The notes beneath the pieces were generated by a model. The model was given only the letters and a program-made list of their open reading frames with translations. It was not told the origin of the DNA and did not search any database. 64,000 nucleotides of DNA, taken from positions 7,884,609-7,948,608 of the forward strand of contig OZ005700.1 of NCBI GenBank assembly GCA_963930775.1, given 5' to 3'. The stretch is from Cliona cf. orientalis. Taxonomy: Eukaryota; Porifera; Demospongiae; Clionaida; Clionaidae. The position numbers and the translations under genes are program-made. Shown here piece after piece: positions 8,148 through 64,000 of this stretch. Positions within the stretch are counted from its first letter, which is position 1; each line of letters starts with the position of its first letter.

Positions 8148-8178
8148 CCCCCCCCCCCTCTCTCTCTCTCTCTCTCTG
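8148..8178. repeat. C run followed by (CT)n
   Basis: About eleven C residues followed by ten CT units. Confidence 0.9.
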
Positions 8179-14952: not shown

Positions 14953-16128
14953 ATGGCTGGAGGAGACTCTAAACTGTCATTTTCTGTTGAAAATATCCTC
15001 AAAGATCACAGAAAGACTAAGAACTGCACCAATCTTGGCAGTAGCAGTGAACTGCAGTCTAATAATGCTAGATCTCGACAGATTATGAGAACTAAACTGA
15101 CAAGAAGACACTACAGTACCTCAAGCATTGAAACGGTTGGCTTGGGCACTGGCTACCTCTCAAGAGGTAGATCGATGATGCTCGACTCGGACCACGACGA
15201 GATGGAGTGTCGATCGCTTGATACTTACACTTCCAGCCCAAGTCCGCTGAGCAGTCCCAGATCGGTAGCCAGTTTGCCTCAGGAATGCTTGCAAGGTAAT
15301 AGCGTCTAATGGGCTTTCACTTTAATTATGACATGTGTATATAGCAGCTGTCACTTTATTACATTGGTATTCCATTTGGAATAAATGTAACAATAATTAT
15401 CTGAAATTGATGTAACGAAGATGAAAGCCTTCTTTTTATGTTTACCTATATTATATACACCTGCAGGTGATGAAAAGGTATCGTCTCCTGGTGACCACCA
15501 TGAAGAATTCGATGACCAATCAGGAAGCAGCCCACCGCAAGGGGGGAGTGGTGAGCATCAGTCCGATGGCGCCAGTCGTACTCCAAAACGCGGTAGAATG
15601 AGGTTCACTCCAGAGCAGATCCAAGTGCTCGAGAGGAGATTCCAGGAGCAGCACTACCTCCTTCCAGCCGATCGTAAGATCCTTTCTCTCGCTCTCCAGC
15701 TCACCGAGAGGCAGGTGAAGACATGGTTCCAGAACAAAAGAGCCCAGTATAAACGCACTAGACCTCTCGTTCGTCATCCCATCTATCACAACGTCTATTC
15801 CAGCTATCCTCATGGCTGTCACACAGCCCCACAGCCACTCCAGTTGACCTCTCCCTGCTCGCCTAGCTTTCTGACTACTGGGGGCTTGGGCCTGGTTGGT
15901 GCTGTGAACTCGAGTGCTGCCTCTCTGAGAGAACTCTCGCTCCTCTGTACAGCAATCCCTCCCTCTCCCCTCCACCCCACATGTGCTGTAACCACGCCCA
16001 CATTCCCTTCTTCCTCGCCCCTCAGCACCACCACACCAACACCAAACTATTTTCAGATTCCTGCCGTCAGCTCGTTCAATCTGACGTACCCTTCACATAT
16101 TCGATCACCAATTACCACTCCAAAATGA
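14953..16128 (+). CDS. Hhex: Hex/Hhex-like homeodomain transcription factor, 334 aa, two coding exons
   Basis: Exons are 14953-15295 and 15467-16128. The intron is phase 1 with GT-AG ends. I chose the ATG at 14953 because it has A at -3 and G at +4; an in-frame ATG at 14929 has a weak context. Residues 10-16 read FSVENIL, an eh1-type motif of the kind that recruits Groucho/TLE co-repressors. The homeodomain is residues 154-213 (15583-15762). It carries the Hex-like combination of an LQLTERQVKTWFQN recognition helix and YLLPADRK before helix 2. Position 50 is Q and 51 is N; position 52 is K where R is usual, followed by RAQYKR. The C-terminus is rich in S, T and P. In other animals Hex is an NK-related (ANTP-class) repressor acting in the nucleus. 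A divergent NK-type paralogue is the main alternative. Transcription is towards MFSD10 and Msx, all on the plus strand. Confidence 0.75.
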
Positions 16129-22468: not shown

Positions 22469-24940
22469 ATGTCGACGACTGGAGGGGAGAGATCTGAGTG
22501 CTGCACGGCTAAGACTCCTGGATGTTGCGAGGGACTGCGGACTGAGCTACAGTGCAGAAATGTCGGGCTGCACTGTGAGGAGTCGTGGAAAGCGTTCCAC
22601 TACTGTCCTGTAAGTGGTTCAACTTCACCAATCGTGCGATAATATTAATTATTATTAGCTCTACACCGTCCTAACTATAGCCTATATTTTTCAATCTCTG
22701 TATGCGTTAAAAATTGGTCACCCACTTTCCAGAGAGGGATAGATCTAATTAATGTATGCAAGATCACGGATTAGTGGAAGCATAATTATTAATAGAGCAT
22801 AATGCATGTTGGTTATCATGTATTAATATCATGAGCAAATCTACAGGCAGAATTGTTATTACAGTTACAGCCATCAGTAACCATTTATTAGTAAAACTCA
22901 AAACTTGCAATCATGCTGGCTTGATTGTATTAGGAGTGTGATAGTGCGTTGCTCTGCTGGCGTGCTAATAGATTGTATGTTGCTTTTTGTGGTTTCTTGG
23001 ATATCAGTGTTGGTCAACAATCATTACTGCGTGAGAATGCCTCCCCGTATGGCAGTGCATTGGAGTATTCACCAGTGCCAATCATGACCAATAATGATTC
23101 ATTGAATGAGCGACTCTCTGTCTGTCTATCTTTGCATTCATTATCGCCTAAAGGTAGTCCAGGAATTACTATGCAATGATGGATTCGCTATAATATTGTA
23201 TCACCTGATGCCATGGAAGTAATCTGCTGTGATATGAGTCAGATTGTTTGATTAAATTTGTGTACTATGAGAGAGGTCTGTAACTTCAGCCTAAGTGACT
23301 AGAACTGGAGCTAGTTACAGCGTCATAATAATAATATTATACATTGATGGGTGGCACTGATTATGTACGTATTATATAGGGGCCGTTTGGCGAGTGGTGC
23401 ATGATGTAGGTTCAAAGATTAACAGCTTGGTTTTGCCTCCTATTGCCTAATTGACCAGGGAATCTACGCTTAAACCACAAAGGATGTTATTTGGCTCTGC
23501 TGTACATGCAACGTGGTCAGTGGTTTCAACCAAATTGCTTTCATGTGCTGTCAGCAGTGATCTAAGGGATGGGGGAGGGTCGGATTGAATTGGGGAGATT
23601 AACAAGCCCCTACTATATACTCCGAAACTAAAACGGCAACAGTGGGGCTACATATTATGGCTATATGAGCAACATCATTCCTATGCTTGAGTAGTTTGAT
23701 CACAACACTGTACAGCTAAGCCCAACATTTCTCATGCAATGCTTTGTCTATGTTTGAATTGAAATCACAGGGAAGTTTTGGTTGATTAGGCTATGCAAAG
23801 AGTGAATCACCGTAAGATCAATGCCTAGCAACAAATTGAATTTCAGCCTCACGGCAGCTGATAAATGTGGACCAACATTGGCGCTAATTACGCTAGGTTC
23901 AACAATATTTAAATGTTCCGCCCCAAACTTGCATGTCAAAACATTCCTTAAATTAGGACATCCAGTGCTTCATGCCTCTGTATTGCCATGACACTCGTCC
24001 ATTTACGGTGTGATAATAGATTCCTTCCTTTTTGTTATTGCAGTGGTTTCCTAGAAACCGTAAGTGGCAGCTGCTCTACCTGTTGTACCGTTGGATCCTG
24101 GCAATCTACTTCACGTGTTGGTTCGTGGTCATTATCATGAATGCGTTCAGCTACATCCAGTGGAAGTACCTGATTTATATCTCAAACTGGTCATTTCTGA
24201 TCTGGTTGGCGTATCTAGTGTTTTCTGCAATTTCTCTAACTATCAAGTTAGTTTGGCAGCTCACTTTACCAATAAATGACAGAATCTCTGCAAAACCAAG
24301 CTATTGCTACTGCTGCTATCAAACGCGACAAATCATGTATCACCCGTGTATTGACTGTGACTGTAAAGACTGTCTGGATCAAGAGGAGTGCCGCCAGATG
24401 CCTCGAAGTTGCAGCATAATGGACAAGATACAATGGCCATTGTCTACTATGGGAACAGAATCTGCCGTTGCCATAACACTACTGTACTGGGCGCTCTTCT
24501 ATGAGCCACACTCAAAGCAAAACCTCTTCAGCATAGACAGTTTGCATATCCACTTGATTAATGGTATCTTGGCCTTTGTCGATGTCTGGGTGTCTGGCGT
24601 GCCCGTGCGTGTCTATCATGCTCTCTACTCGGTTCTGTTTGCAGTAAGCTATGTGGTCTTCACTGGAGTGTACTATACAGCTGGTGGCACAGATCCCACA
24701 GGGAACTCATATATCTATCCGTTCTTGAACTATGAATCCAATCCTGGTTCAGCCGTGGGGCTGGGCATTGTCTGCGCTCTGGTGCTGATGACAAGCATTC
24801 ACTTCATCTTTTATCTTCAGTTTGTTATACGGAACTGGATCACTTGTTATATTCAGAGAAGATTCTATGGACTAAATAAAGCCATACTATGTAGAAAAGG
24901 ATCACTGAACCATAGCCTAAATTTGGAATTACCACTATGA
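22469..24940 (+). CDS. Rolling-stone-like multi-pass membrane protein 1, 345 aa
   Basis: Exons 22469-22609 (47 codons, phase 0, donor GTAAGT) and 24044-24940 are separated by a 1,434-bp intron. Exon 1 encodes a short cysteine-rich cytosolic or lumenal segment ending in CP. Exon 2 opens with a WFPRNRKW block and a run of hydrophobic helices: LLYLLYRWILAIYF, YLIYISNWSFLIWL, ESAVAITLLYWALF, then VPVRVYHALYSVLFAVSYVVF and a last helix before IRNWITCY. Aromatic-rich helices with an YRW motif in the first and an ISNWSF-like motif in the second fit the rolling stone (Rost) family, known in Drosophila for a role in myoblast fusion. The biochemical activity of the family is not established. A Cys/Asp-rich insert (CYCCYQTR to CDCKDC) follows helix 2 and is expanded relative to copies 2 and 3. 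Its 3' end converges with the nucleoside hydrolase gene, 102 bp apart. Confidence 0.85.
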
Positions 24941-25042: not shown

Positions 25043-26062
25043 TTAACCAGTCAGTGCCTTTGCAAGGCTTTCTTCAAAATTTTGCAACCCATTCGACTGC
25101 CAGTTTAAGGCCACCTGCACTGGTACTCCATTCTGGTTATCAACTTTGGTGTAGCCTCTACTGTCCACAGATAGGCGAAGCTCTTGAAATTCTATGAAGT
25201 CCTTGGCCTCTGGCAACATCAACAGGACTGCGTTGGTGTCGTACAAGACAGGGTACACGGTCTTGGCGCTACAGTCGTACTGGTTGGTAAAGATACAGAA
25301 GTACATAAGAGAACTGACCAGCCCCAGTGCAGTTGAGTTCTCTCCAGCCAATATCTCAGCAAAGTGTTGAGCTCCGAGGATAACGATACCACAGGTGTCC
25401 AGTGGGGTGAACGTGATACTCTGCCACCCAGCAGAGAGAAACTTCTGCATACACCATGGGCACATGTAGACGTTGTACTCAGCTACGGGGTTAGAGGAAT
25501 TACGATAGCCTCGATTGATAGATCCTGCCATGGCGTAAATACGAGCCTTCTTTGCAACACCGGGGTAGCGTTTCAGTAGCTCGGGAAAGTTAGTCATAGG
25601 TCCAATACAGATGATATTGACAATCGTAGGGCTATTCATGATAATTTTGCCCATCTGCTCAATCCCATCCTCAAATACACCACCCTTATAAGAGCTCAGG
25701 TCGTAGCCGGACGCCCAGTCGAAGAGGGTGTGTGCTGTCCTATTGTCGTTCTTCAGGCCTATGCCTATGGGGATGTCTTTATCGCGTCCAATGATCGTAA
25801 GCAGCTTGGCCGTGATGCGCGCACGGGCGGTCGTATCGTCGGTGCAAGTCACGACCAGCTTGATATCCAAGTTGCTGCTCTGCGCAGCGTACACCACGGC
25901 AAAGCTGTCGTCTATATCGCTGCCAATGTCCGTGTCGATGATGACAGGCACTGGAGCATCGGAAGTGGAGAAATGGGGATCATCCAGAGGAGGAAAGAAG
26001 GCCCACCCAGGAGTCACAAAGAGCACCGCCGATAGTATATATAGGAGCTGGTCCATGGCCAT
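25043..26062 (-). CDS. Secreted inosine-uridine-preferring nucleoside hydrolase, 339 aa, intronless
   Basis: One uninterrupted frame. Residues 1-21 form a signal peptide (hydrophobic LLYILSAVLFVTPGWAF). Residues 43-52 read DTDIGSDIDD, the calcium-binding aspartate cluster that defines the IUNH family. A central NPVAEYNVY block follows MAGSINRGYRN, matching the family's substrate-ribose-binding AE-N region. A late aspartate lies in LYDTNAVLLML. The family hydrolyses the N-glycosidic bond of ribonucleosides to free base and ribose. A secreted form would act on extracellular nucleosides, in salvage or in removal of purinergic signals. Length is typical. It has no intron, unlike the genes on both sides, which fits either a retroposed copy or an old transfer; base composition is not clearly foreign. 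ATG 26062 is the first of two close in-frame starts. Confidence 0.9.
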   Translation of the reverse strand: MAMDQLLYILSAVLFVTPGWAFFPPLDDPHFSTSDAPVPVIIDTDIGSDIDDSFAVVYAAQSSNLDIKLVVTCTDDTTARARITAKLLTIIGRDKDIPIGIGLKNDNRTAHTLFDWASGYDLSSYKGGVFEDGIEQMGKIIMNSPTIVNIICIGPMTNFPELLKRYPGVAKKARIYAMAGSINRGYRNSSNPVAEYNVYMCPWCMQKFLSAGWQSITFTPLDTCGIVILGAQHFAEILAGENSTALGLVSSLMYFCIFTNQYDCSAKTVYPVLYDTNAVLLMLPEAKDFIEFQELRLSVDSRGYTKVDNQNGVPVQVALNWQSNGLQNFEESLAKALTG

Positions 26063-27437
26063 CTTCTTTTCCAGCTACAATAGGTCACATGGACCCTGCC
26101 ACACCCACGATGCAAAGCATGTAGCCAGCCCCTCCCACATGCACATCTTTTCACCCAGTGTGTCTGTACTGTCATTAGCTAGCAGCGGCATGATTGTCTC
26201 AACGGGGGGGACGTGCCTGATTAGTTGGCGAATCAAACAATGTTGCCAACATTGGCTGTTAGGTCTCTTGCTGGGAATAATCTGAATGTTAAAACTATCT
26301 GATGAGTGAAAAGATACACATGCACTCATTTGATAATGCTGGTGCAATTGCTAAGATTCTTCCGAGATAAATAGTCCCCATAATAATGGTATCTAATCCA
26401 GGTGCACAACAGTTGAGTCCAACTTAACGTCAGCAACATAATAATTATTATTATTTGTGTAGTATAACTCCATTAATCGTACAATAACAATAATAGCATT
26501 AGCTACTATTATGAGTAAATGACATCTCATTATCAATTTTGTGTCACTTTGAGTACTGTCACACCACTATTAAGTGGTCTGAGTCCCCAGACCATCCATG
26601 GCAACTGTGCGTGTACGTGGTACTCCCCTGCCATTTACGAGGGGGGATGGGGGATCAGGGGCTGGGTTTTGGTTAACAGGGTTTGTCCTGGGGGACCATA
26701 TCTGGCGCAGTGGACAGTCACGGGCCATAATTTGTGGGGGGATTGGATATTGCTACCATAATATTAATAGTATGGTATCACAAGATTCAGGAGTTCAGGC
26801 ATGTACCAGTGTTTAATCACAGATGCCCATGAATGATACTGTCATGTATTCAGAATGACACAAATATGTTACTGACATTAAGTTGGATTCTACTGTCATG
26901 TACCTGGAAAGGATACCATTATTATGTATTAGGGGACTAATTATCTCAGAAGAATCTAATTGCACCATAGATAATCAAGACACAGTCTTAATTATCACAT
27001 TCTATGATTGTAACAGCATGATCGAACAAATGCATGACATTGTGTACCTGCTCTTTTCACTGATCAGCAAGAGATCTGGAGTAGTAGTATTCAGTGTTCC
27101 CCCTAAAACTAGGTAATCGAGGTAAATACCGCGTTTAGATTCCAGAATACCGAGTTAAAGTTTCGGAGCACTATATTATAGACTATTGTAATACCTCACC
27201 AAGAAAACACGAACATCAGTATTTTACCTACTTAAGAAAATTTCCTGCGGGGAACACTGGTAGTATTGAAGTGCTGAATGGGGTGGGGCAGCAAATCGTT
27301 AATTGGTGGGTGTGGTCGTACTTCCGGGGGAAGAGTAAATCCCCATGCACATGCGCTTGCTTACGCGCATGCGCTATTCATCTGGGTGACTACTACACAA
27401 CCGAGTTACAGAGAATACATGACTGGCTTAAAAATCA
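26063..27437. other. Intergenic region between nucleoside hydrolase and rolling-stone-like gene 2
   Basis: About 1.4 kb with no supported exon. It contains the 5' flank of the nucleoside hydrolase gene, a G-rich stretch around 26640-26660, and one complete hAT-type miniature element at 27092-27259. A GCGCATGCGC palindrome sits at 27365-27374. Confidence 0.6.
27092..27259. mobile_element. 168-bp non-autonomous hAT-like MITE with 8-bp target duplication
   Basis: The ends are inverted copies starting CAGTGTTCCCC, flanked on both sides by the same 8 bases, GTAGTATT (27084-27091 and 27260-27267). An 8-bp target-site duplication with CAGTG-type termini is the hallmark of hAT transposons. There is no coding capacity. 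The exact duplication suggests a fairly recent insertion. Confidence 0.88.
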
Positions 27438-29057
27438 TCACAGTTCTTTCAGTTCAGTGCCAATCTCGGGACCATTTTGTTTCCCTTCGTCCAATCTGGT
27501 GTGATCTGGTGGTGATGACATGCGCTTGCTATAGATCAGATAGACAACCCAGTAGCGGGCAACATAGGCAAGGTAGAATAGAACGTGCACGATTGGAAGT
27601 AGGAGAAACACTACTCCAAAGATGATGCCAACAGCACCACCAGGGCTGTTGCCATAGTCAAGGACACTGTAGATAAAGGGATCACCAGCCAGATTCGTTC
27701 CACCGGCAGCATAGTAGATGCCACTGAACACCACAAAAGTAGCCCCAAAGATCATTGAGAAGTAAAAATGGTAGAATCGAATTGGCACGCCAGCTGCTAG
27801 AAGTTCTATAACAGCTACGATGGCCTGGGTGCCATGGGTATTGAATCGAATACCATCAATGGAATCATTTGGATTGTAGATAAGGGGCCAGTAGACAATG
27901 GTGATGGCAACTGCAATTTCAGTCCCGATCACAAAAAGAGCCCACTGAATCATGTGATACCATTTGATCTTGTTGTAGCTCCTACCACAGCAACCAGTAG
28001 GAGTCTCCAGGTCATGTTCGTAAGCTGTGGATCGTGTTTCCCCGGCATCAGATTCTATATAACTTTGGCGACAGCAGATAAATTCTCTGCAGAAATCAAC
28101 GGTTGATACGACTGTGGACCAAATAAGGTGAGCATTGAATGACAGGAAGCCCCAGTTGGTGAGAAAGATAAAGAACTTGGCATCTCCATCGTTTATGTAG
28201 CTGAGTCCAGCTGCAATCAGCCAGCCGGCAAAGAATCCCGCAACCACCCAGCGATAGATTATGAAGAAGATCTGAAAGTACCACCGATATGGCAGCCACT
28301 GCATAATAATAATAACAATAACAACAATGAGCACTAGTGCATGCATTGTGGATGTGCAATATTAAATATAATATATTATTATGCTGAGCTAGATGGGTAA
28401 GCTTAGTTACCAGGTGTCGCATTACATAGTAGCCCTGTCAACCTATTGTGTGGAAAAAAATTCTGCAGTGGTGGATTACGCCCATCAGTACAATTATTAA
28501 GCTTATGTAACTGATGCCCATGTATGCCAAGCTGATTACTTTGCTACATTATCCTACGCATTCATGAGTGCTCAAATTAATCGATAGTACTTACTGGGGT
28601 GTACATGTTAATAACATGCATACACAGATGCTTAGTACATCTGTGATAGTATAATACAATACCATAGTAGACGTGAAATGCTTCAATTAACAAAGTGTCC
28701 AATTAGTCAGAAATTTCATTCCTGGAATGTGGTACTTTAAATTTTAGACACTTATTATAAACGTAATTTATCTTAAAAATATTTTTCAAATCAATGCAAC
28801 AGTGACGGTGCTTCTACGTACTCAAGAGTTCTATAGTATAGGCTGTATTAAGTTTGGACACCCAGGCGAATAGATTTTTTTTAATTACCGGTATATATAT
28901 ATACCGTTACTATCGATATTAAGACCAAACTTACCGGTGTATAGGCGAAGGCTCGTTTGTCATGATGAGTTAGACAGAGCCTGGAGTAGTGGCAAAACTC
29001 CAGGCGAAGCAAACGACAGCACCTGGCGTTACGCATATCAACGGGATTACCCGACAT
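27438..29057 (-). CDS. Rolling-stone-like multi-pass membrane protein 2, 327 aa
   Basis: Exon 1 is 29057-28935 (41 codons) and exon 2 is 28298-27438, with a phase-0 intron of 636 bp. Donor CCG|GTAAGT and acceptor TTATGCAG|TGG match copies 1 and 3. Exon 1 contains a CCRLLRLEFCHYSR block. Exon 2 starts WLPYRWYFQIFFIIYRW, followed by helices at FFIFLTNWGFLSF, VIGTEIAVAITIVYW, VPIRFYHFYFSMIFGATFVVFSG and a last one before VARYW. The family is Rost; its molecular role is unknown. It differs from copy 3 mainly in exon 1 and the C-terminal tail. A GGCGCATGCGC palindrome lies about 60 bp upstream of the start. Copies 2 and 3 are clearly tandem duplicates, while copy 1 is more distant. Confidence 0.87.
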
Positions 29058-29266: not shown

Positions 29267-30766
29267 TTACAATTCTTTCAATTCAGTATCAATCCTTGGA
29301 CTGCTTTCCTTTGCTTCTTCCAGCCTTGAGTGGTCCAATGATGATGATGATTGCTTACCATAGATCAGATAGAGAGCCCAGTAGCGGGCAACATAGATGA
29401 GATAGAACAGAAAATGTATGATCGGAAGGAGCACCAGAATCACTCCAAAGACCAAACTGGTAGCAGATCCAGGGCTTTCACCATAATTAAGAATGCTGTA
29501 AATGTATGGTTCATTATTCGTATTTGTTCCACCAGCAGCATGGTAGATGCCAGTGAATACAACATAAACTGCTGCAAAGATCTGAGTAAAGTAAAAGTGG
29601 TAGAATCGAATTGGAACCCCAGTAATTAAGAGCTCTATGACGGAAATGATGCCCTGGCTCCCGTGGGTATTAAAATTAACACCGCTAATTGAAAATTCGG
29701 GGTCGTAGAGAAGTGGCCAATAGAGGAGAGTGAGAACTACAGCAAGCTCAGCACCAATCATAAAGAGAGCCCACTGGATCATGTGATACCAGCTGATCCT
29801 GTTGTAACCCCTCCCACAACAACCAGTGGGTGTTTCTACGTCACGTTGGTACGCCAGAGAGCGAGTTTCTCCCAGGTCAATGTACTGCTGGCGGCAGCAG
29901 ACAAACTCTTTGAAGAAATCAACCGTTGACACAATTGCAGACCAAATAAGGTAAGCATTGAATGCCAGGAACCCCCAGTTGGTAAGAAAGATGAAGAACT
30001 TTGGACCGCCATTAAGATCGTAGAGCCCAGCTGCAACTAGCCACCCGAAGAAGAATCCCGCAATCACCCAGCGGTAGATTATGAAGAAGATCTGAAAGTA
30101 CCACTGATATGGCAGCCACTGCATAAGGTGTTTTTTAAGTGCATGTGTAGGTGGAGGTGATGAATACAAAAATGCTTGTGAACAGGGAGTTAATTATCTA
30201 AAATATGCTAATCAGGAAAGAACACAAGGGTATTAGATTACTTATAGAGACAGAGAAATCTGTTGCAAGTCCGGATCCATTACACGTCAATATTGACAAA
30301 AGTGATAGCTAAATCATACGACTTTTTAAGGCATTGTGTACAAAGCTCAAACCACGGGAACAATTTAAGTTCAGTGCTCTAAATTGGCACAGAAATGCTG
30401 TTCACTATAATAATTATACTCTATGTATAGTCGGACTTGAAACATTTGAATACTGGTTTACTTTGAATAATAAATATGCTAGGTTTGCTATCACGGTTGG
30501 CCGGCTAATAGACTTGCATAAAGTCCTTTATACCCAAAGTATAGTTCACAGCAGATCTATGACTAGAATTATAGTGCTAGATCTAGTAGGTCACGCACCG
30601 AAACCAAAAACTATTTCAAGTTAGCGTGATAAACACCACAACTTACCGGTGTAAGAGCGAACGCTCGTTTATCATGATGTGCGAGGCAAATTCTGGAGTA
30701 CTGGCAGAACTCCAGCCGAAGTAAACGACAGCACCGAGCACTGGTAGAATCATCAGGGCTAGCCAT
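29267..30766 (-). CDS. Rolling-stone-like multi-pass membrane protein 3, 323 aa
   Basis: Exon 1 is 30766-30647 (40 codons) and exon 2 is 30118-29267. The phase-0 intron is 528 bp and sits at the same codon as in copies 1 and 2. Exon 1 again carries CCRLLRLEFC and ends FALTP; exon 2 begins WLPYRWYFQIFFIIYRW. Hydrophobic helices follow at FFIFLTNWGFLAFNAYLIW, GAELAVVLTLLYWPLLY, VPIRFYHFYFTQIFAAVYVVFTGIY and the helix ending IYVARYWALYLIYG. The C-terminal tail (SRLEEAKESSPRIDTELKEL) is nearly the same as in copy 2, pointing to recent duplication or gene conversion. It is divergently oriented from Msx, with 1.7 kb between the two starts. Confidence 0.87.
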
Positions 30767-32503: not shown

Positions 32504-37329
<4,826 letters not shown>

Positions 37330-48401: not shown

Positions 48402-50757
48402 CTACTGTCCTGTATGAATGCTCCTAATCAAATCAACTGGCGAACGAAACTGCACCACCTTCTCCAGTCCAAAGTGAATTTTTGCAAGCTTTGCCTGAGC
48501 GATGCTGCACAGCCGGGGAGGTTGGAGCTGGACATGGGAACCTAGTTCGTAGACGAGTGTTTTAGCCCGTTCCTGGAATTCCGGATCCACATACCAGGGC
48601 AAGGCAATGACGTAATCAAGTAGCCCCTCCTTAATGAGAACATCGCATGTGCATTTTCGACCTACCTTACTGTGGAGAAAAAATAGAATCATGTTCACAC
48701 TAGTACCAAGCAGCGCTCTGAAATTGGGATATCTGTTCGAAATTACTGCTGTACGGTGTAATAACTGGTGATCTGGCTGGTAGAACAGCTTAACATAAGG
48801 CAGCAGGGTGGACCAGATGCAAGACTGCTCTTCGTCGTACTTTGTGATTGTGCTGGGGTGAGTCTCAGAGAGAAACTGGTTCATGTTGCTCAGAATGACA
48901 TCAATGAAGGACGGAGGAATTAGGTGAGGCGATGTGAGAACTAGCTGGGCAAACTCAACGAGAATTGTACACCTGCAAGCCATCGGCTGGTATGAGGAGT
49001 TGAATCCTTCCCATTATGCACAATACTATTATAATCTTACCGGCACGTATAATATACTTACTTGTACTATTGAAAGAGTGCCCTTAACATAATAATGCTG
49101 CAATTAATGAATCATGCAGTTGTCATAGTAAAGTATCAACGGCTACTTATATTGCAACTTCTTCAGATTTTTGAAAGCACAAGGGCACTTAATCAAATAC
49201 AACGATGTCATATAGTATTCTCCTTTTATACATCCTCAATAATAGTACATGCAAAGATACTCCCTCACAAGTCTAATCTCTGACATCACTCACTTTGATC
49301 TACGTTAGCCTTTACTTCTTACCTGAGTACAAAGATATTGAGTCTATCTGCTTCTTCGGTGGCAGTCAAATCAACGTTGGTTCTCATCTGGTACACCTCT
49401 AGGGGACCCTTTACCACATCCGGTCGGGTCAAATACTCATGGGTGTCGCTGTTGTGAGCCAGGAGGAGAAATGTCTCAGCGACCACTAAGGCAACGTCAA
49501 TTTTAAACTGTTCCGAGAGTGAGATGGAGAGCAGCTGGTCCAGGACACATGGAGCAGAGGAGATCTTAAGCTGACACTCCGGAAGTTCAGCTAGACTGGA
49601 AAAGACATAAAGAAACTAACATTACATCGATCTGGGATACCACAAAGCAACATTTTTATGTGTGTGCTGTTTTTTTTATTTATGAGAATTATGTGAGTCA
49701 AGAGGCTGTTGCATAATTTTTTTTAATACACCATAATATATTGCAATGATAAGCATGAAAATTTTATCTTACTTGCATATGATGTAGGTAGCAATGCTGA
49801 TCATTTGTAGTAATGTATCAGTATTGTACAAGCACATCTCTTCATCACTGCCAGTATCCTTCACAACCTCGCCCCTGACAACCACCTTCCTTAGCAACGA
49901 CCTGAACACCATGTCAAGAATGTTGCCGTGTTGAAACAGTTGTCTCCTCATCTGCAGAGTCTCTCCAAACCCCATAATAACCTCGATCGTGCAGCATTCT
50001 ATCAGCTTGAAGGTTGGTGGCATATGGATATTCCATTCACGCGACGATACCTCCCTATATATAAAAGTTTAATAAATTGGGGATTTTCTCCAGAGGGGGA
50101 ATGTCTAGTACTAGTACTGAAACTGATGGCAAAAATATCCTGGCATCATTTATCCTCATACCTGTATAATTCAATGACAGCTTGCAGTCCACCCATTGCT
50201 TCAAAGTAGAGCTTATTTACATAGCATTTTGGATCCAGCCACCGAAATGACTTATGCAATAAGGTAGGGTACTCTGCTTCAAAGCAGCCCGTCTTGATAA
50301 TGTCATCTGTCTTAACTCCACCCTCTGCTGTCAAGTGTTCTATTCGTATGGCAGCTGTTACGTTCTTGAGCCACTCGATGACTTCTCTGATGAGCTGGCA
50401 GTCTGCCTCGCAGAGGTAGGAGACGGTGAGGGTGTCTCCACTTCTGATTCTCCTCTCCAGTAGGCTGTCTCCATCAGAGAGGGGGGCTAGCTGGTAGGAC
50501 ACAGATTGGACACAAACGGGAATCGAGAAGTTGGACTCGATGGCTTGCTTCAGTTCCAGAGTGGAGCTGGGGAAGGAGCTCAGTGAGAGAACCTTGCTAT
50601 CTGTAGACTTACGAGAAGTGCAGTTCAATTGGAGATGGAACACTGTACTGTCCCCATCAGCTGGGCTGTATGTGTATATAGCCAAGAAAGAGATAGGATA
50701 CACACACTGAATTGATAGCTAAGTTTGAATATTCATCATGTACCTCTCCTCCATCAT
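48402..50757 (-). CDS. Ubiquitin-like plus helical-repeat protein A, 547 aa, five exons
   Basis: Exons: 50757-50744 (14 nt), 50665-50162, 50054-49773, 49595-49323, 48972-48402. All introns are phase 2. The tiny first exon encodes MMEE and is supported by its match to the start of paralogue B. Residues about 10-90 form a ubiquitin-like beta-grasp domain: FHLQLNCTSRKSTD, TLELKQAIESNFSIPV, then IRSGDTLTVSYLCEADCQLI. The rest is helical, with armadillo-like blocks such as VNKLYFEAMGGLQAVIELY, RSLLRKVVV, LAELPECQLKISSAPCVLDQ and PPRLCSIAQAKLAKIHFGLE. I do not recognise the family. The architecture suggests a cytosolic scaffold or adaptor in ubiquitin-type signalling (inference). It is 64% of a head-to-tail tandem with paralogue B in the sense that B lies immediately upstream, 193 bp away, on the same strand. 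Confidence 0.85.
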
Positions 50758-50950: not shown

Positions 50951-53271
50951 TTATACAGCGATATTTTGATACACACTTCGAATGAGGTCTACAGGTGAGT
51001 CGCTTGCTACTACACTTTCGAGTCCAAAGTGCATCTTGGCGAGCTTGGCTTGCACTATGCTGCACAGTCTGGGAGGCTGCAGTCTCATGTGCCCACCCAG
51101 TTCTGACACCACTGATTCAGCTGATTCCTTTGATTCTACAGATACATGCCACGGCAGTGCAGTGATGTAATCCACCAGGCCCTCTTTGACGAGAATATCA
51201 CAAGAGTACTGTCGGTTCATTTTGCTGTGAAGGAAGAAGAGAATCATACGCTCACTGCTACGCTGTAACTCTTGCATTTGCCGATCATGATCAGAGACAA
51301 TCATTCCAGGATTCTGTGGTTGAGGAAGATAAAAGAGTTTGATGTAAGGGAGCAGTGTGGCCCAAACACACTCCTGCTCTTGCTCGTAGATTCTGATTAC
51401 GTCTGGCTGAGTTTCGGAGAGAAATTTGTTCATCTGATTGAGTACGGTGTCAATGAATTGAGAGGGCACTAGGTGGGGTGATGCTAGAGCAAGTTGAGCA
51501 AAGATCAGAAACGTGAAGCACCTGCAATTATTATAGAACAGGAAAAAAATTCCTAATAACTACTCAAAATTAGTATAGGTAATAGTGAGGTTGTATGTTG
51601 AATTTGGGTAAAATAGCACTCTGAAATAGGTATTTGGTTCAAAAATTGTACGAGCGATAGCGAGTACAATTTGATGAACCAAATGCCTATTTCAGAGTGC
51701 TATTTATCCAAATTCAACATACAACCTCACTATCACAGGCTAATAGTATACATACACAAAGTCAGATAGGTATTTCAACTCAGAAGGGTATTTCAAACTC
51801 AGGTGCCTATTTCACTTGTAATTGGTATACAAGATTTGTACACATCAAAGTACAAGTATACTATTAATGCTATAACAGTTTTGTGAAAATCTCCACCACT
51901 GCTCAAGAAATTACTTAATAATTGCAGAAAGGTACACTATTGATGCAATGAGTGAGCATTATTGTACTCACTTTAAAGCAGCCACTATTCTCTGATCCTT
52001 GGCACTCAGCTGTTTGTCATCGGCACTCTCACACCTGTTCTTATACACCTGCAGAAGGCCCTCCAGGATGCCTGGCCTGCTCAGATACTGGTGAGTGGCG
52101 GTGCAGTGAGCCAGACACACAAATATCTCACTGACAACGACTGATGTGGAACAGTGACAATTCTCTGACATGGAAACACAGATAACCTGCTCCAGCACGT
52201 TTGGATGAGATGCAATTCGAAGCTGACACTCGGGTAGCTCAGAAAAACTGAATAGAGATAATGGTTATTGACATTGTGTGCAATGGGCCATCTCATTATC
52301 CAGACAGGGGTTGGATAACCATGCAGAACATATTCACTGGTAATAATACTCAGTACAGTGGAACCTAGCTAATAACTCATGGGCCATGACTATATTAAAA
52401 TAGAGAGAGGTGGCTGCTGTATGGAGTAAATTTGCTACTTGAAGCTCGAACTATGTGCCCGTAAAGTAAGCATGCATGTACACAGCTGCGTATGAACTTA
52501 CTTGGCAGTTATGTAGACTGCATCTATAAGGACATCCCTCCAAATGCTGTCCTCAAATTCATCATTTCCAGTCTGGCCAAAGCCTTTGACGGTCTCCCCT
52601 GGCTCCAGCACTTTTCTCAGTAGAGACTTCATGGCCATGTCCAGCACACCAGCTTTGAGTGAGATCCTTCTAAGGGGGAAAATCTCGCCAAAATTTCCAA
52701 TGGATTGGATAGAAAAGCTTTCCATGTATTTCTGGAGTGGTCGCATGCTAGGCCAATCACGACCAACGAGCTCACTGTAGAGTTCAACTAGCGCTGTCAG
52801 TCCACCTTCTGTTTCAAAGTAGAGCTTGTTCACAAAAGCCTTCGGACTAAGCCAGTCGAACACTTGGATAGGTAAGGTTACGTGATAGCTGGAGTTGATA
52901 CCACTCCAAATTAGTTGGTCTGTGTGGAGTTGGTTTGCCTCAACTCCATTCTCACACTGTATTGCAGTCACCACACGCCGAATCCACGAGATGATCTCCC
53001 TGATGAGCTGGCAGTCTGCCTCGCAGAGGTAGGAGATGGAAAGAGTGTCTCCACTTCTGATTCTCCTCTCCAATAGGCTGTCTCCGTCAGAGAGGGGGGC
53101 TAGCTGGTATGACACAGATTGGACACAAACAGGAATCGAGAATCTGGACTCGATGGCTTGCTTCAGTTCCAGAGTGGAGCTGGGGAAGGAGCTTAGTGAG
53201 AGAACCTTGCTGTCTGTAGACTTTCGAGAGGTACAATTCAACTGGAGATGAAACGTAGTCTCCTCCATCAT
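50951..53271 (-). CDS. Ubiquitin-like plus helical-repeat protein B, 538 aa, three exons
   Basis: Exons: 53271-52502, 52247-51972, 51521-50951, both introns phase 2. It starts MMEETTFHLQLNC and continues with a ubiquitin-like domain almost identical to that of paralogue A (SLSSFPSSTLELKQAIESRF, YQLAPLSDGDSLLERRIRSG). The helical body is more diverged: FVNKLYFETEGGLTALVELY, KSLLRKVLEPGETVKGFG, FSELPECQLRIASHPNVLEQ and PPRLCSIVQAKLAKMHFGLE. The first exon of B corresponds to exons 1, 2 and 3 of A fused, so two introns differ between the copies. Family not recognised; the function is presumably that of A. The start lies 200 bp from the 3' end of the alpha-kinase gene upstream. Confidence 0.87.
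51582..51733. mobile_element. 152-bp foldback (palindromic) element in an intron of gene B
   Basis: The sequence from ATAGTGAGG to CCTCACTAT is one long imperfect palindrome with arms of about 75 bp and almost no loop. It lies inside the second intron of gene B. No coding capacity. Most likely a foldback-type MITE; no clear target duplication was found. Confidence 0.75.
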
Positions 53272-53471
53272 AGATTATATATTCCCCTCCCCTATGCCTC
53301 CATCGATGATCTCTCGGAAATGTTGCTGAGTCAGCGCTACTTTTAACGAGCCCAACCCACTGATGCGCAATAAATGGAATAATCAGGGGGGGGGCAAAGA
53401 AACATAATAGAAACATCACAATCACGATATAAACCTACAAACCGCAATACTCTAATTATAAAAATTGCTAG

Positions 53472-56400
53472 CTATGGCTGATGTTCTAGCTGCATAGCTC
53501 GACATATATCATTGCATTTGTGCAATTGGAAGAATCTGTGGATTCCTTTCTCGCCGAGGTTGGTGGCGCCATGATGGAGAACGCTGACAGAGTCATGGAT
53601 GACCGGGTCAGTTAGTATCACTCCTGAACCGTCCCTCTTCCCCTGAAGATCGCACACCAGTAACTGCTTCCCAGACGTGATCCAGGTGTAGTGGCTGAAT
53701 GCCTGACATATGACGTTTAGTTCATAGTCTCTGCTCTCCGGAATGCAGGCAAAGCTACTATTGAACTTGGTGTAGTTGCTGCCTCCAACGTATGCTTCGA
53801 ATGTGAAATTGTGCTCTTGTTCGTTAGCAATCCACTGCATCACTCCAACAGTACCAAGCGTAACTTGCTCCACATCCACATTTATGGCACTATTTTGGGT
53901 GAGTACAATGTCATGTATTTCTTCTTTGAATTTAATAAATAACAGGGCAGCAATTGCATGCACATTGGCTGTTTCCAGGCACCTCTTCAAGCAACTGCTT
54001 CTCTCATCGGCCCACTTGGACCTCTTTATCACTAGGTGATGATTCTGGTCTACATCTAGAGCATGGTAGGCTATCCTTTGGGCACCTAGGGCGAACGGTC
54101 GTGGGGCAATTTTGACCGACATTGGTGTCTTGGGATGCTCCAATGTACCGAGTGATCCAGGAGTTGGTGCAGGCATGACCATCACTTGCTGCACTGGTAG
54201 GCTGTCCCAGTGAGGAATGCCTTCATCAATGGTGTACTCATGAAGGTACCTGTCGGAACCGAAAAGAAGGCGTTCAAGTGTGGCACCAATGGAAGTTGTA
54301 ACCAAGTGAAAGATAGTTTCGACAAGATCACTCTCTTGACTAGCATTGAACAGTTGAATGGACAGTTGCTGACTACTTTGTTCCAGCAATGAGGAGTTGA
54401 ATGCCTCGATCATGGCGAGGGTATGGGACTTGTTGATGCATCCAAAATGATAGGCTATCTGCTTGTCAGCCAAACGCTTCATGAGGTCATCTAGCTGAAG
54501 ACCTTCAGGATCACCCTCAGGGTAGTCATCTTTGACGAGTGGATTATGATATTGCAAGCCATGGCACGGAACATCTGCTGAATGAATAAGTACCTACACA
54601 GGAATATGGAATACTACCTTAGGGCTACGATTATTTGCGGGTACAAATATTAGTGGATTTTTGAAATAGTGCGTTTAGCGGGTACTCATTTTAGCGATTT
54701 TCAAAATTAACATTCTATTTATTGGAAAATGTTGAAAATTTTTAATATTCGCAGGTACAAATATTAGCGAAAATTGGATAAATCGCTAATTTCGCTAAAT
54801 TTAGTACCCGCAAACAAAAGTGTCCTTAAGGTAATAGAGAAGCAACATCTTGTACTTCTTTTCAATACTAACCTTTGTTCCAACTTTTTGCCAGCTACAA
54901 CTCAGCACAGTATCCAGTCCTCCAAACACATTCTCCGCCCTGTCCTGTCTTGTACCAGCTGGCAGCACCAAATCATCCACAAAATGATAGAACTTATCCA
55001 GATCACTGAAAAAGACGTTTCAATCCAACTCGCAGCCATTGATAAGATTTAAAAAATTTTCACTTACGTGGTGAAATCGAGGGTACTGATGTGGGTGTAA
55101 GGAGGTTGATCATAGTCAGTGTAGAGCACAAATGCTAAATGAAGCTCCAGGTGGTTGTGATTAGCTCGTAGCTGCTCTCTCCAAGATCGGATGTCCTTAA
55201 TTCTGTTAATCCATGGCCCAGTGGAAACAGTATGATCAACCATGAAACAAATACCGACCTGTATATAGCAAGTAATAGAGAGGAAATACCATAATTATGA
55301 ATCTTATCATCTAGAAGTTCCTCAGATTAATATATCATACAGTTTCGGCAGATCTCAGATTCATGAACATATTATCAATCCTCTCTTGCTTTTCGCTTTC
55401 GTCCTTCTGAAGTTGTGACAGTGTCTTGACTTTTATCTCATCATGCTGATCACGAGATTCATGGCTCATATTATCCAGTGCTGTAGGCGCTGAATTTTCA
55501 CCTGCATGCATGTACAGTAGATATCGCTTTATTGCATGAAACAACAGTGACTTACATTTTGGCTCATTGTTAGCTTCAGGTTTCACATCAGTGGCTTCAG
55601 TCACTAAATTTTCACCTGTACACATGGTTGATAGTACACGTGTAGCATAGATTTTACACACATACAACAGTGACTTGCTTTTTTGCTGAAGTTGTATTTC
55701 CTGTTTCACATCTGCTACTAATTTATCGGCATTACCCGGTCCTATAATACATGGTTGAGATTACGGACAACATTCTGAATGAAGCTATAATATACAAGAA
55801 CAGGAGTGTGTAGTTGTACCTGTACGGAGGTATTTAGCAGCAATTCTGTTGGCTAGTGCTCGATTTTCATGCTCCACGGCCTTCACTAGCGCATGCCAAG
55901 TCGGTGGACCGTACTTCTCAACATTATAATTTTTCCGAAGCCACAGCAGTAAAACTTGAGTAAATGCTTGGGCAAAATCATAAGGAAATTGCTTCTGTAT
56001 GATTTCCAGCTCATGTGGCGGGAGGCCGAGGTGAATCCCAAATTGGTGGTATTTCACTTTGAGGGTGTTGGTTGCGTCATATATATCATGAAAATCATCC
56101 TTCTCAGCTATAAAGGTGATTGATTTTTGTAGCAATGATTGTATGATTAATGATGATAAAACTCACTTAGTACAATGTCACCACTATCTTGGGAACGTAG
56201 TGGCGATGCACCTATATTATTCAAATCAGATATGATTACATATCACTCGGGCCTGAATAATTATGACTATAATAATTATTAGTATAGCAGGATGTATCAA
56301 TCTGAAAATTCAGATTGCCAATGTTTGAACTACTTTACCTGGACTCCGTTTAGCTGATTTGTAACACTTCCTTAAAGGGATAAAGATGACAATAATTATA

Positions 56401-56834
56401 AATAGACCTAGTATCATCGTAATGACACCACTGCTGCCAATACGGCTGGATGCATCATTTGATCCAAAACCTGCAGGATGTTAACAGTTTTGATTTATCG
56501 ATGCCAATTAATCTGTCACTGTTACCTGCTTATGTGTGATAATCCAATTAACCTCAGGGGCCGGGGAGGTTTGATAGGGTCAAAGGTCATAACAGGGTGG
56601 GGCAAATACAAGTGGAATCAAACTTCAAGAATGCCCTATTAATTGTTAACCTTTGACCCTATCGTCTGCTATAATCATGCATACTAGCCTCGTACCCACG
56701 CTGGGAATGAAGATACTTGAAGTACACACTAACTAATATTATCTCTAAACCTCACCAGGATCATGAGATTGTTCAGTAAGCCCAGTAGAATCCATTCCAA
56801 GTTGATGCGGCTTCAAAACATATACCAGATTCAT
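53472..56834 (-). CDS. Membrane-anchored death-domain / vWA / alpha-kinase protein, 757 aa, ten exons
   Basis: Exons: 56834-56756, 56470-56339, 56211-56167, 56107-55820, 55741-55679, 55615-55556, 55501-55341, 55258-55068, 55005-54873, 54593-53472; the frame closes exactly. A membrane helix is at about 41-59 (GVITMILGLFIIIVIFIPL) followed by RKCYKSAKR, which predicts a cytosolic C-terminus. A death-domain-type fold is at about 95-178 (LGLPPHELEIIQKQFP, WHALVKAVEHENRALANRIA). A charged linker follows, then a vWA domain from 277 with MIDAS-like DHTVS at 284-288. The alpha-kinase domain is about 541-751: likely ATP lysine K574 in VIKRSKW, CDLQG at 698-702, LTDP at 711-714, and the Gly-rich/zinc segment GATNLGEKG with H742, C744 and C748. 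vWA plus alpha-kinase resembles the VwkA type; the attached membrane and death parts are unusual. The intron after 55679 is GC-AG. The extracellular part is short, and further 5' exons are possible. Confidence 0.86.
54616..54832. mobile_element. About 217-bp inverted-repeat element in the penultimate-to-last intron of the death/alpha-kinase gene
   Basis: The termini ACCTTAGGGCTACGA...GCGGGTAC and GTACCCGC...GTCCTTAAGGT are imperfect inverted copies of about 28 bp. The interior repeats TTAGCGA and GGTACAAATATTAG units. Non-coding, MITE-like. The paralogous intron at 60854-60910 lacks it and is only 57 bp. Confidence 0.6.
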
Positions 56835-57263: not shown

Positions 57264-57634
57264 ACTCCTTGACTAGCCTTCTACGTATACGTCAGGTTTT
57301 ATAAACCTTACAGTAATAATTATTTTGGAGTGTTACTGTAAGGTCTATTTATATATTTATTTATTTGATTTGATATAGCTTAGCCTCGTCCCCAGGCCAC
57401 TCCCACGTTTTCAATGTTGCACGCAGAAAGGAGGGAGGGCCTGGTATCAGGCCCTCCCTCCTTTCTGCGTGCAACATTGAAAACGTGGGAGTGGCCTGGG
57501 GACGAGGCTAATAGCTAACACATGTACACCACAATAGGTGCAGCAGTATATTAAATAGTAGTAATTAGCTAATTAGCTACAATTCCATAAGGTACAATTC
57601 CATAAAACCTGACGTATAAGGCTAGTCAAGGAGT
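57264..57634. mobile_element. Inverted-repeat element carrying a near-perfect hairpin
   Basis: The outer arms ACTCCTTGACTAGCC..GTCAGGTTTTAT (57264-57302) and their reverse complement (57602-57634) enclose about 300 bp. The left arm has six extra bases. At the centre, 57381-57510 is a separate palindrome with 63-bp arms around a 4-base loop. No coding capacity. Confidence 0.75.
57381..57510. repeat. 130-bp hairpin, 63-bp arms and 4-base loop
   Basis: Reading from TAGCCTCGTCCCC to GGGGACGAGGCTA, each base of the left arm pairs with the right arm around GTAT. The absence of visible mismatches implies a very young insertion or active maintenance by conversion. Confidence 0.93.
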
Positions 57635-59746: not shown

Positions 59747-62700
59747 TTACTCAGCTGGGCGTTCCAGTTGCATAGCTCGACATATGTCATTGCATTTGTG
59801 TAGTCGGAAGAATTGCTTGATTCCTTTCTCGCCAAGGTTGGTGGAGCCATGATGGAGAACACTGACAGAGTTGTGAATAACTGGGTCAGTTAGTATCACT
59901 CTTGAGCCATCCCTCTTCCCCTGAAGATCACACACTAGCAGCTGCTTCCCAGATCTGATCCAGGTGTAGTGGCTGAATGCCTGACATATGATGTTTAGTT
60001 CATAGTCTCTGCTCTCTGGAATGCAGGCAAAGCTACTATTGAACTTGGTGTAGTTGCTGCCTCCAACGTATGCTTCGAATGTGAAATTGTGCTCTTGTTC
60101 ATTAGCGATCCACTGCATCACTCCAACAGTACCAAGTGTAACTTGCTCCAGATCCATTTTTACGATACTATTTTGTGCGAGTATTTCCTTTTTGAATCGA
60201 AGAAATGATTGGGCAGCAATCGCATGTACATTGGCTGCTTCCAGGCACCTCTTCAAACAACTGCTTCTCTTATCAGCCCACTTGGATCTCTTGATCACTA
60301 GGTAACAATTATGGTCCACATCCAGAGCATGGTAGGCTATCCTTTGAGCACCTACAGCGAATGGTTGTGGGGCAACTTTGACCGACATTGGTGTCTTTGA
60401 AGAAATTGGTATCTTGGGATGTTCTAATGCACTGAGAGTTAGTGGTGGCATGACCATCACTTGCTGCACTGGTAGGCTGTCCCAGTGAGGAATGCTTTCA
60501 TCGATGGTGTACTCATGAAGGTACCTGACAGTGTCAGAATCGAAAAGAAGGCCTTCAAGCATCGCACCAATAGAAGTTGTTACTGAGTGAAATATAGTTT
60601 CGACAAGATCACTCTCTTGACTCGCTTCGAAGAGTTGAATGGACAGCTGCTTCTGGCTTTGAGCAAGTAATGAGGAGTTGAATGCCTCAATCATGGCAAG
60701 GGTGCGAGACTTGTAGATGCATCCAAAATGATAAGCTATCCACTTTTCAGCTAACTGGTTCATGAGGCCATCCAATTTAAGATCACCCTCTTTGGTGATT
60801 GAACTATGGTACTGCATGCTGTGGCAAGGAGCATCTGCCATATGAATAAGTACCTGCATATGAAGATTGGATGCTGGTAAATAGAAAAGAGAATGAGAGT
60901 TTGAATCAACCTTTGTTCCAATTAAATTTTTTTCCCAGCTCAGGTTAAGCATAGCATCCAATGCTTCAAACACACCCTCTGCTCTATCTTGTCTTGTCCT
61001 AGTAGGCAGCACTAACTTATCGATGAAATGGTAGAATTTCTCCAGATCACTGATTAAGAAAATTTATTATGGTAACTGCAAGCATGGTAAAGTATACCAT
61101 ATAGCCTAAAATTTTCGAGGTTATCCCGCAAAATATTCAGTATGTAGCATGGTACGCATGGTCAATGACTTGTGGGTGTGGCCAACAATCGCGAGTGTAC
61201 TTGGTTCTGTTATCAGGTATGAACATAGTTTTTAGTGCTCACGAAACTTCTAAAGCAAGCTGACAGTAGGCCGCTTCCAAATCCAGAGTGATATGGTTGA
61301 CAGTGATCATCACCAGCGAAGAAGCTAGTCCAAGCTAACCTGGACAGCATGCATAGGGATCACTTGTATTCCCGCTCCCCATTTCTCTTGTTGATGCGAT
61401 AGCTTACCTTGAACGAATCGAATTATTATTTCGAAATTGCATACCATTGCCTTTACCACCACTAAGGCCATACCTATTTGATATGTTGTTGCTCGGACAT
61501 AGACCAGTGCAAATCAGAGTCGGTCAGTCGGGAAAAAAAAAGAAAAAGAAAGCAATTAACACCTCACTTTACCATGGTAGAGAGCCAAGCAGTTGTCATT
61601 GTGCCTGATCAGACAGCATGACACACGGTGCGCATGCGTGCAATGTGTTGACACACCCACTTTTTTTTTTTTACAATGGACAAAATGCAGGGTCGGTCGG
61701 GTCCGAGCAACAACACATTGAATAGGTATGGCCTAAGCATGCGCTGATATTGACTGGGTGTGGCTTATGCAGGACTCCGGCACAAGAATTTTATCTGCGA
61801 AAAATTGTTCCAAAGAAAATTTGGCACAACTGTGAAATATTTAATCCTCGAAAATTTTAGGCTACACAGTATTCACTTACGTTGTGAAATCCAGTGTATA
61901 AGGAGGTTGATCATAGTCAGTGTAGAGCACAAATGCCAAGTGAAGCTCCAGGAGGGGGTGGTTAGCTCGTAGTCGCTCACTCAAGTACTGGACATCTTTT
62001 ATTGTGTTAATCCATGGCCCAGTGTAGACAGTACGATCAATCATGAAACAAACACCGACCTGTATGCAAGATGTAAAGTATAATAATTATCATTGTAATA
62101 GATGTATATCATTATCTATAGTTTCAGCAGTTCTTAGATTCATGAACATGTCGTCAATCCTCTTTTGCTTTTCACTTCTGTCCTTCTCAAGTTGTGATGG
62201 TGACTTGCGTTTCATCTCATCTTGCTGTTCATGAGATTCATAGTTCATACCTGTTGCATCAGTTACCATAGTTTCACCTACACATACAGTCGAGAACACT
62301 GCCTGATATCATAGCATCATAATAATATTATTATGCAAAAGTGTTTCAAGTTTCGTATCAGTTGCAAAGGTGTCACCAGTATACACTATATTATAGCCAC
62401 ATAATACAATGTCATACTCACACTATCAATAATAATTGGGGCAAGCCTGAGCGAGCCCCACATAAACGATTCGTCAGTTTCGCTATATATTATGGTACGT
62501 CAGTCACGCGAAATTATATCCCTAGCATGGCTCTATGGACATAAACGTGCAATATTCTACTGCGCATTCTCATGCCTGACATGGACTTACGGGCCGTATA
62601 TGTGCCGTTCTAATTTAGCGAATTGCAGATCGCCATTGACCATGCATGTCATCATGAACGAACCACGCCGGGCCACGTGTAAGTCAGAGAAAAGTGAGGC

Positions 62701-63957
62701 TGCAAAGGAGGACAGAGCTCGTCGTCCATCCCAGTCAGCTCGAGGAGCGGCTAAGAAGGCGATCGAGATAGCTCACTGAGACTGTACAACACAGGCAGCT
62801 AGCTATCATCGGTGGCTGTCTCAGAGACTAAGTTGCCAGGGTCAAGTGGCATCAACGGCACCCAATTGCCAGACAGAATAGATACCACTACTTGGAGGGG
62901 GCTATAGGGCTGCGGGCAGGCACACGGCAACTATGACTCGCATGGTCTGCTTGGATCTGTGTCAGAGCCGGGTCTACCGTGCTATGTCTTTAAACTTAGT
63001 TCTTGAATTGCCGGTAGCACTCCAGTTTACGCTCGCTCAGGTTCACCCCAAACAGGCCCTGCATGTACACTAGTATCACTATAATATTATAATCTTATAG
63101 TTGTGTGTCCGTCTGTCCGTTACGGAAGGTCGGCGGAAGTGATTTGACTCCGCGACACAAGAGGCTATATCTCTGGCCGTCGAGCATTACAGGCTACAAC
63201 GAGGCGATCTCTGCGAGTGCCAGCCTTGGCACTACCTACAGGCATGAACACTAGCTTCTTAGACGGATTGTACAAAACCATGCAAGCAACAAATGGAGAC
63301 TCACATTCAGTGGCCTGCAGTTAGGTAAGCAGCTCGATTTGTGAGAAGTCGTTGTGCTAGTGGTCATCACGGAGGTAGTAGATTCTGACTTTGACTTCTC
63401 GCGTTCTCAAGTCTTGTGAGGGGAGCTATGAGCAAGCTAACGACTTTTTTGGACAGTTGATAGATTCAGCCATGTGCTCAAACAGGATGCCCTGAATGCA
63501 CATGCTCAATATTAGAATGTTCCAGAACATAGGTAAAGGGTGACTTCGGCCACTTTCCCAATCAGCAGTTGCAATTAAACTAGCACTCTGGCCTGTGGCC
63601 GTGCACCCTAACTGAGAGAGAGTAGTGGTGCAGTATGTGTGCATGCGCATGCTCGATAGAATATTCTAGAACTGTACAGGTAAAGGGTGATCTCAGTATC
63701 TTGCTTAATGAAACTAGCAGTGACCGGCCATGCCTTTGTAAGAGTTGTGGCACAGTGTTCCATTGAGTACATACACGTCCGCTACTTTGTGGATTCCTAA
63801 CTGATGCCAAAAATACAACAATCATGTGAAGCAGGGGGCGAGCGAAGCGAGCCCCCCTGCTGTGTATATATATAATTATATAGGTACTTACATTTCTGCT
63901 CATCTTGCTGCTCATTAGTTTTGTGTTTCACATCTGTGACGATTACAAACTTTTCAC
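59747..63957 (-). CDS. Second vWA/alpha-kinase gene, 5' incomplete, 548 codons in window
   Basis: Exons seen: 63957-63892 (linker), 62277-62120 (linker), 62059-61881 (vWA), 61049-60911 (vWA), 60853-59747 (vWA end plus alpha-kinase). Sequence and intron phases match the neighbouring death/alpha-kinase gene. The alpha-kinase keeps VIKRSKW, CDLQG, LTDP, the NLGEKG loop and H/C/C zinc residues. Two oddities appear. The vWA MIDAS-like motif is DRTVY, so the serine ligand is replaced by tyrosine. The linker exon ending at 62120 is followed by AT (AAACT|ATAGAT) where the paralogue has GT, and no GT exists between 62119 and 62060, so a normal donor is missing. The 57-bp intron 60910-60854 is open and in frame, so it may be retained, adding 19 residues. 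The membrane and death parts would lie beyond 64000. Confidence 0.75.
61101..61864. mobile_element. About 760-bp inverted-repeat element in a vWA intron
   Basis: The ends TAGCCTAAAATTTTCGAGG and CCTCGAAAATTTTAGGCTA are exact inverted repeats. They lie in the intron between the two vWA exons of the second alpha-kinase gene. The interior carries poly-A and poly-T tracts and no coding frame of note. Confidence 0.75.
62278..63891. other. 1.6-kb intron with decayed linker exon and inserted sequence
   Basis: On the minus strand a segment at 62341-62378 (GTGACACC..CTGATACGAAAC) resembles the linker exons but has no AG before it and no GT after it, so it looks like a dead exon copy. From about 62430 to 63890 there is sequence with GAGCGAAGCGAGCCCC-type blocks typical of mobile-element ends, but I could not define boundaries. 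Confidence 0.4.
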
Positions 63958-64000
63958 CTGACAGTGTATAATATTATTATAGTGATCGTGATACTGGTAG

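Follow-up and report, generated by a model that had tools for sequence, protein, structure and literature searches.

In a 64,000-nucleotide window from the sponge Cliona cf. orientalis (contig C12:7884609-7948608; the genome used for comparison is a 216.8-Mb assembly) we find a gene on the minus strand (gene 1, 56834..53472) whose predicted product joins a membrane helix, a Death domain, a vWA domain and an alpha-kinase domain in that order. On balance we favor the view that this is one gene for a membrane-anchored, Death-scaffolded alpha-kinase. A single gene with this domain order had been proposed earlier by a reading of the letters of the window (the sequence-only reading), and the proposal is now supported by an open frame and by a tandem paralogue (gene 2) with ten exons. 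The exons of gene 1 are as follows.

Exon 1, 56756..56834, minus strand: residues 1-27; open frame with donor gtgag and a probable start at Met14 (56795).
Exon 2, 56339..56470, minus strand: one membrane helix (residues 41-59) with basic residues after it; Kyte-Doolittle 2.93.
Exon 3, 56167..56211, minus strand: juxtamembrane; phase 1-1, kept in gene 2.
Exon 4, 55820..56107, minus strand: Death domain, residues 87-181; Pfam Death 3.4e-05.
Exon 5, 55679..55741, minus strand: linker with a GC-AG donor; the gene 2 counterpart has the same GC donor and phase.
Exon 6, 55556..55615, minus strand: linker; the gene 2 counterpart has a GTAAGT donor and the same phase.
Exon 7, 55341..55501, minus strand: charged linker before the vWA domain; conserved in gene 2, which lost the exon 7 donor.
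Exon 8, 55068..55258, minus strand: first part of the vWA domain, with the metal ion-dependent adhesion site (MIDAS) D-H-T-V-S; aligned with five paralogues; VWA_4 sub-threshold at 18.9 bits.
Exon 9, 54873..55005, minus strand: second part of the vWA domain, from the paralogue alignment.
Exon 10, 53472..54593, minus strand: end of the vWA domain, linker, complete alpha-kinase domain and stop; Alpha_kinase 2e-38.

Joined, these exons give 2274 nt and 757 aa with the sole stop at the end, and the ten-exon model of the sequence-only reading thus closes in frame as it had said. The 757-aa frame requires intron 5 to be of the GC-AG type (exon end AAAAAA, intron start gcaagt); all nine acceptors are AG, and the donors comprise eight GT and this one GC. 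An alternative 764-aa model that uses a GT donor for exon 5 was dropped because the tandem paralogue keeps the GC donor. Since 55760-55335 is one continuous open frame, the Death and vWA domains share a frame in every in-frame reading of gene 1. Translation likely starts at Met14, as an ATG of gene 2 aligns there, and a product beginning at this residue would be 744 aa long. Introns 5 and 6, together with the starts of the exons that follow them (55679-55502), resemble duplicates of each other (gcaagtcactgttg and gtaagtcactgttg, then further on AG followed across the boundary by GTGAAAAT). Upstream of gene 1 lie an inverted repeat with perfect arms of at least 60 bases, like a small mobile element (57381-57510), and eight occurrences of the motif aaacatcga between 57861 and 57687.

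The strongest argument that the Death and vWA-alpha-kinase parts belong together comes from gene 2, which is located as listed here.

Gene 2, 59747..64000 and past the window end, minus strand: tandem paralogue of gene 1, ending 2.9 kb upstream of gene 1 exon 1.
Gene 2 exon 10, 60853-59747, minus strand.
Gene 2 exon 9, 61049-60911, minus strand.
Gene 2 exon 8, 62059-61881, minus strand.
Gene 2 exon 7, 62277-62120, minus strand.
Gene 2 exon 6, 63957-63892, minus strand.
Gene 2 exons 5 to 1, minus strand: past the window end on contig C12.

The kinase, vWA, linker, Death and transmembrane (TM) exons of gene 2 follow the same order as in gene 1, and the 4.4 kb that separate its Death and linker exons hold equivalents of small exons 5 and 6, with matching acceptors and phase and the same AAAAAA-gcaagt GC donor. 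The phases of the ten exons (0,1,1,1,1,1,1,0,2,0) are identical in the two genes, and the splice sites of gene 2 comprise nine AG acceptors out of nine, with seven GT donors, one GC and one AT (exon 7). As the sequence past exon 5 of gene 2 has stops, reaching its linker needs splicing. The two genes are 74% identical with a ratio of nonsynonymous to synonymous substitution rates (dN/dS) of 0.29 (723 aligned codons, whole gene), values that include gene 2 joined across its lost exon 7 donor. By exon or group of exons, the ratio is 0.23 in the Death exon (bootstrap interval 0.11-0.44), 0.35 in exons 1-4 and 7 pooled (0.24-0.52), 0.22 in exons 5 and 6 over 38 codons and 0.22 in exon 10; taken singly, the TM exon (0.64) and the linker exon (0.56) show weaker constraint.

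Several observations weigh against a single fused product. The donor of exon 7 in gene 2 (62120-62060) reads ATAGAT vs GTATGA in gene 1, and read-through hits a stop; a transcript lacking this donor would end shortly past the linker, so gene 2 may now be broken or make a TM-Death product only. Both genes have a Met in exon 7 (MSHES/MNYES) that could serve as a kinase-only start, an AATAAA lies within intron 6 of gene 1, and the other vWA-kinase genes lack a Death domain of the gene 1 and gene 2 type in the flanks searched. Such features would fit two transcription units, or alternative transcripts, with a TM-Death adaptor that ends past exon 6 or 7 and the exon 7 Met as the start of a vWA-alpha-kinase. 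We regard this arrangement as unlikely, as exons 5 and 6, which bridge Death to vWA, keep both splice sites, their phases and coding constraint in gene 2, and as the phase-1 acceptor of exon 7 is conserved with an open frame ahead of the Met in each gene. Because gene 2 keeps all ten exons, the bridging exons included, one transcript is much likelier than two adjacent genes, and splitting the locus between Death and vWA would mean cutting through conserved internal exons. Judged from exon structure and coding constraint, the Death and vWA-alpha-kinase parts very probably form one gene.

Profile matches support the Death assignment. The sequence-only reading had taken residues 95-178 for a Death domain, and residues 87-181 of the gene 1 product do match Pfam Death (PF00531) at 3.4e-05 (24.3-24.5 bits, cut-off 22.6), as do 10 of 10 aligned relatives of the exon. 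The structure model of the exon has six helices at moderate confidence, and its top structural matches are Death domains, with weak scores. Of the three profiles expected for the 757-aa product, Death and Alpha_kinase score above their cut-offs, but VWA_4 does not (18.3-18.9 bits vs a cut-off of 27). As its own score is sub-threshold, the vWA assignment for gene 1 rests on homology to paralogues with clear vWA domains: VWA_4 matches five of the six aligned family members at E-values up to 0.1 (best 1.4e-10), and in exons 8-10 a vWA-like region sits directly N-terminal to the alpha-kinase with exon boundaries that match five paralogues, the order of VwkA-type proteins. The MIDAS of gene 1, DHTVS, retains D, T and S but lacks the G-S-M surroundings seen in DCTGSM, the form in four paralogues. 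We read the gene 1 vWA domain as degenerate.

The alpha-kinase domain of gene 1, in turn, looks intact from its motifs and profile coverage. Alpha_kinase (PF02816) matches at 2e-38 (132.8 bits, cut-off 21.3) over profile positions 3-185 of 185, and exon 10 matches PDB structures of eEF2K, MHCK A, TRPM and ALPK1. The product contains the motifs VIKR, DLQG, LTDP, GATNLGEKGI, FSH and HKCNDIC, which we take to cover the ATP lysine, D-x-Q-G, TDP, the glycine-rich loop and the histidine/cysteine zinc site; the C-terminal ones align with eEF2K and 4kuj, and kinase motifs also align with the paralogues. An AlphaFold2 model of exon 10 had a predicted local distance difference test (pLDDT) score of 36 and was not used. 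A fusion gene that is expressed but decaying, a lineage-specific gene whose kinase or Death part has lost its function, would fit the damage seen in this pair: the MIDAS is altered in gene 1 and broken in gene 2 (DRTVY), where the serine has become Y though the other exons are constrained, and the exon 7 splice donor of gene 2 is gone. These losses count against a working fusion protein, but the dN/dS of 0.29 over the whole gene and 0.22 over exon 10, together with the intact kinase motifs of gene 1, make decay improbable.

The gene 1 product has one strong hydrophobic segment, which peaks at residues 41-59 (mean Kyte-Doolittle over that window, 2.93) and is followed by RKCYKSAKR. Under the positive-inside rule these basic residues suggest that the remainder of the protein, with the Death domain, linker, vWA and alpha-kinase domains, is cytosolic. 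The sequence-only reading had called the product a membrane receptor; the single predicted helix bears out the membrane part, but 'receptor' is an overstatement because only ~27-40 residues are predicted ahead of the helix. A true ligand-binding receptor would need its ectodomain in undetected upstream exons, and there are some open codons upstream of Met14 in both genes as well as candidate acceptor AGs in gene 2. However, the frame ahead of the conserved Met is closed by a stop 72 bases before Met14 in gene 1 and 93 bases before the corresponding Met in gene 2, and the upstream regions of the two genes share just 21-49-base matches, making a hidden ectodomain quite unlikely. We accordingly describe gene 1 as encoding a protein with a short N-terminus and a predicted anchor.

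To place the pair among its relatives we compared it with the whole assembly, where eleven alpha-kinase matches correspond to about ten genes. The TM exon has two matches in the entire genome at E-values up to 10, those of genes 1 and 2, and is found with these two alone among the ~ten alpha-kinase genes. A Death hidden Markov model (HMM) trained on eight other Death exons found all eight again, together with the held-out exons of genes 1 and 2; it gave no match in L010-L020, the loci of the other alpha-kinase genes, which extend upstream by at least ~7 kb. Three-frame Pfam scans had also returned no Death near genes 3 and 4 and two genes on contig C4; this absence was not used, the method having missed the Death exons of loci L023 and L024. 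One Death match, C4:2212011-2212286 (minus strand), lies ~18 kb upstream of the vWA-kinase at C4:2193624 on the same strand, beyond the flank searched.

Death exons of this family are common elsewhere in the genome, with at least 150 relatives (150 scored of 398 candidates). The acceptor phase is 1 in 10 of 10 loci examined, and the exit phase is likewise 1 in genes 1 and 2. When the best 40 of the 150 scored Death matches were compared with 104 NACHT rows, 12 had a same-strand NACHT no more than 6 kb downstream, and over the same 6 kb the upstream side and the opposite strand gave 0 of 40; the 12 are a lower bound, as 103 of 490 NACHT candidates were scored. At one locus (L030), inspection by eye shows NACHT-like sequence in the long frame that comes next after the Death exon. 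At L023, L024 and L029, proline- or histidine/serine-rich repeats come after the Death exon in the same locus. With 12 of the best 40 relatives just upstream of NACHT, it is likely that the Death exon was captured by exon shuffling from a pool of the NOD-like receptor (NLR) type. The simplest history would then be that a pre-existing vWA-alpha-kinase gene of the VwkA type acquired the TM exon and a phase-1 Death exon of the NACHT-associated family, and was afterwards duplicated in tandem. It is possible instead that both exons were lost from the other alpha-kinase copies.

The separate components of such a protein have precedents. IRAK/Pelle and RIPK1 carry a Death domain and a protein kinase on one chain and share with gene 1 the union of Death and kinase in one protein, but theirs is a conventional protein kinase, and they are not known to have a vWA or TM. 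ALPK1 is an alpha-kinase of innate immunity and TRPM6/7 place an alpha-kinase on a membrane protein, but neither is known to have a Death domain or vWA. A 2005 paper on VwkA of Dictyostelium reportedly located it to the contractile vacuole and Golgi. Its vWA domain lies upstream of the alpha-kinase (PMC1420674; PMC7072818), the same N-terminal position as in gene 1, but a Death domain or TM is unmentioned in the portions of its descriptions consulted, and the MIDAS of gene 1 is altered.

Death-type domains are also known to be shuffled in sponges. According to the main text of one survey, Amphimedon has 357 TRADD-N proteins; in the majority of their architectural types Death-like domains stand at the N-terminus, the C-termini vary, S/T/Y kinases included, and an oyster set with Death-like and TRADD-N domains carries a TM helix (PMC8195603). 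These proteins resemble gene 1 in that a Death-type domain has been shuffled, within particular lineages, to a range of effectors, but alpha-kinases are absent from that main text, figures and source data aside (PMC8195603). Our TRADD-N search of the genome gave no match, and the controls were likewise unmatched. A 575-Mb sponge genome holds 25 Death-NACHT-LRR genes, named NLRD (PMC12909245). These too place Death on an immune platform, and in Cliona the Death family of gene 1 is found just upstream of NACHT; in contrast to gene 1, the NLRD platform is NACHT/LRR instead of a vWA-kinase, and the TM exon is confined to genes 1 and 2. Among the titles and abstract openings listed from the open literature, a set outside which fall most subscription papers and all sponge proteomes, no fusion of an alpha-kinase with a Death domain was found, and the domain order of gene 1 thus looks undescribed there, as the sequence-only reading had held. 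The combination looks new as far as it is searchable, with its parts and the shuffling of Death-type domains in sponges already known.

Other features of the window and of related loci are noted for completeness. Downstream of gene 1 lie two mutually similar frames with a ubiquitin-like N-terminus (see the lines below). At L016 (~4100-9000, minus strand, contig C4), the upstream flank of a vWA-alpha-kinase gene contains a conventional protein kinase plus Kelch region and a weak match to ubiquitin (0.025).

52498-53274: ubiquitin-like frame; Pfam ubiquitin 3.1e-05, slightly under the cut-off.
50146-50718: ubiquitin-like frame; Pfam ubiquitin 5.6e-05, slightly under the cut-off.
15397-16128: homeodomain gene; Pfam 2.1e-19.
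36709-37329: homeodomain gene; Pfam 2.7e-22; by resemblance we presume that this and the preceding gene may be members of an NK-type cluster.
24020-24940, 27438-28361 and 29267-30193: three frames for Rolling stone-type membrane proteins.
25043-26074: nucleoside hydrolase frame beside them.

Death domains form oligomers, and it is through kinase proximity that proteins combining Death and kinase, among them IRAK and RIPK1, signal. By analogy, the short N-terminus and single helix of the gene 1 product would anchor it with the Death domain, linker, vWA and alpha-kinase domains in the cytosol, the membrane concentrating the Death domains and hence the alpha-kinase domains. Death domains of neighboring copies, or of adaptors, would then assemble and draw the alpha-kinases together, which would allow them to phosphorylate each other and their substrates, while the vWA domain, with its metal site partly altered, would probably act as an arm that binds a substrate or partner. 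A role in immunity or cell death is plausible given that the Death-exon family is common to NACHT genes. Only tentatively, and with the odds in our judgment running the other way, do we propose that gene 1 represents a class of animal kinase, not described so far, that acts in innate immunity or cell death and in which a membrane-anchored, NACHT-type Death domain directly drives an alpha-kinase. Alpha-kinases are a small kinase family, with about ten genes in this genome, and the tandem pair offers a clean case in which an NLR-type Death exon was probably shuffled onto an enzyme unrelated to it; the pair also makes a direct signaling route from Death domain to alpha-kinase testable. If such a route exists, NLR-type Death signals in this lineage could reach an atypical kinase at the membrane straight through Death-Death contacts.
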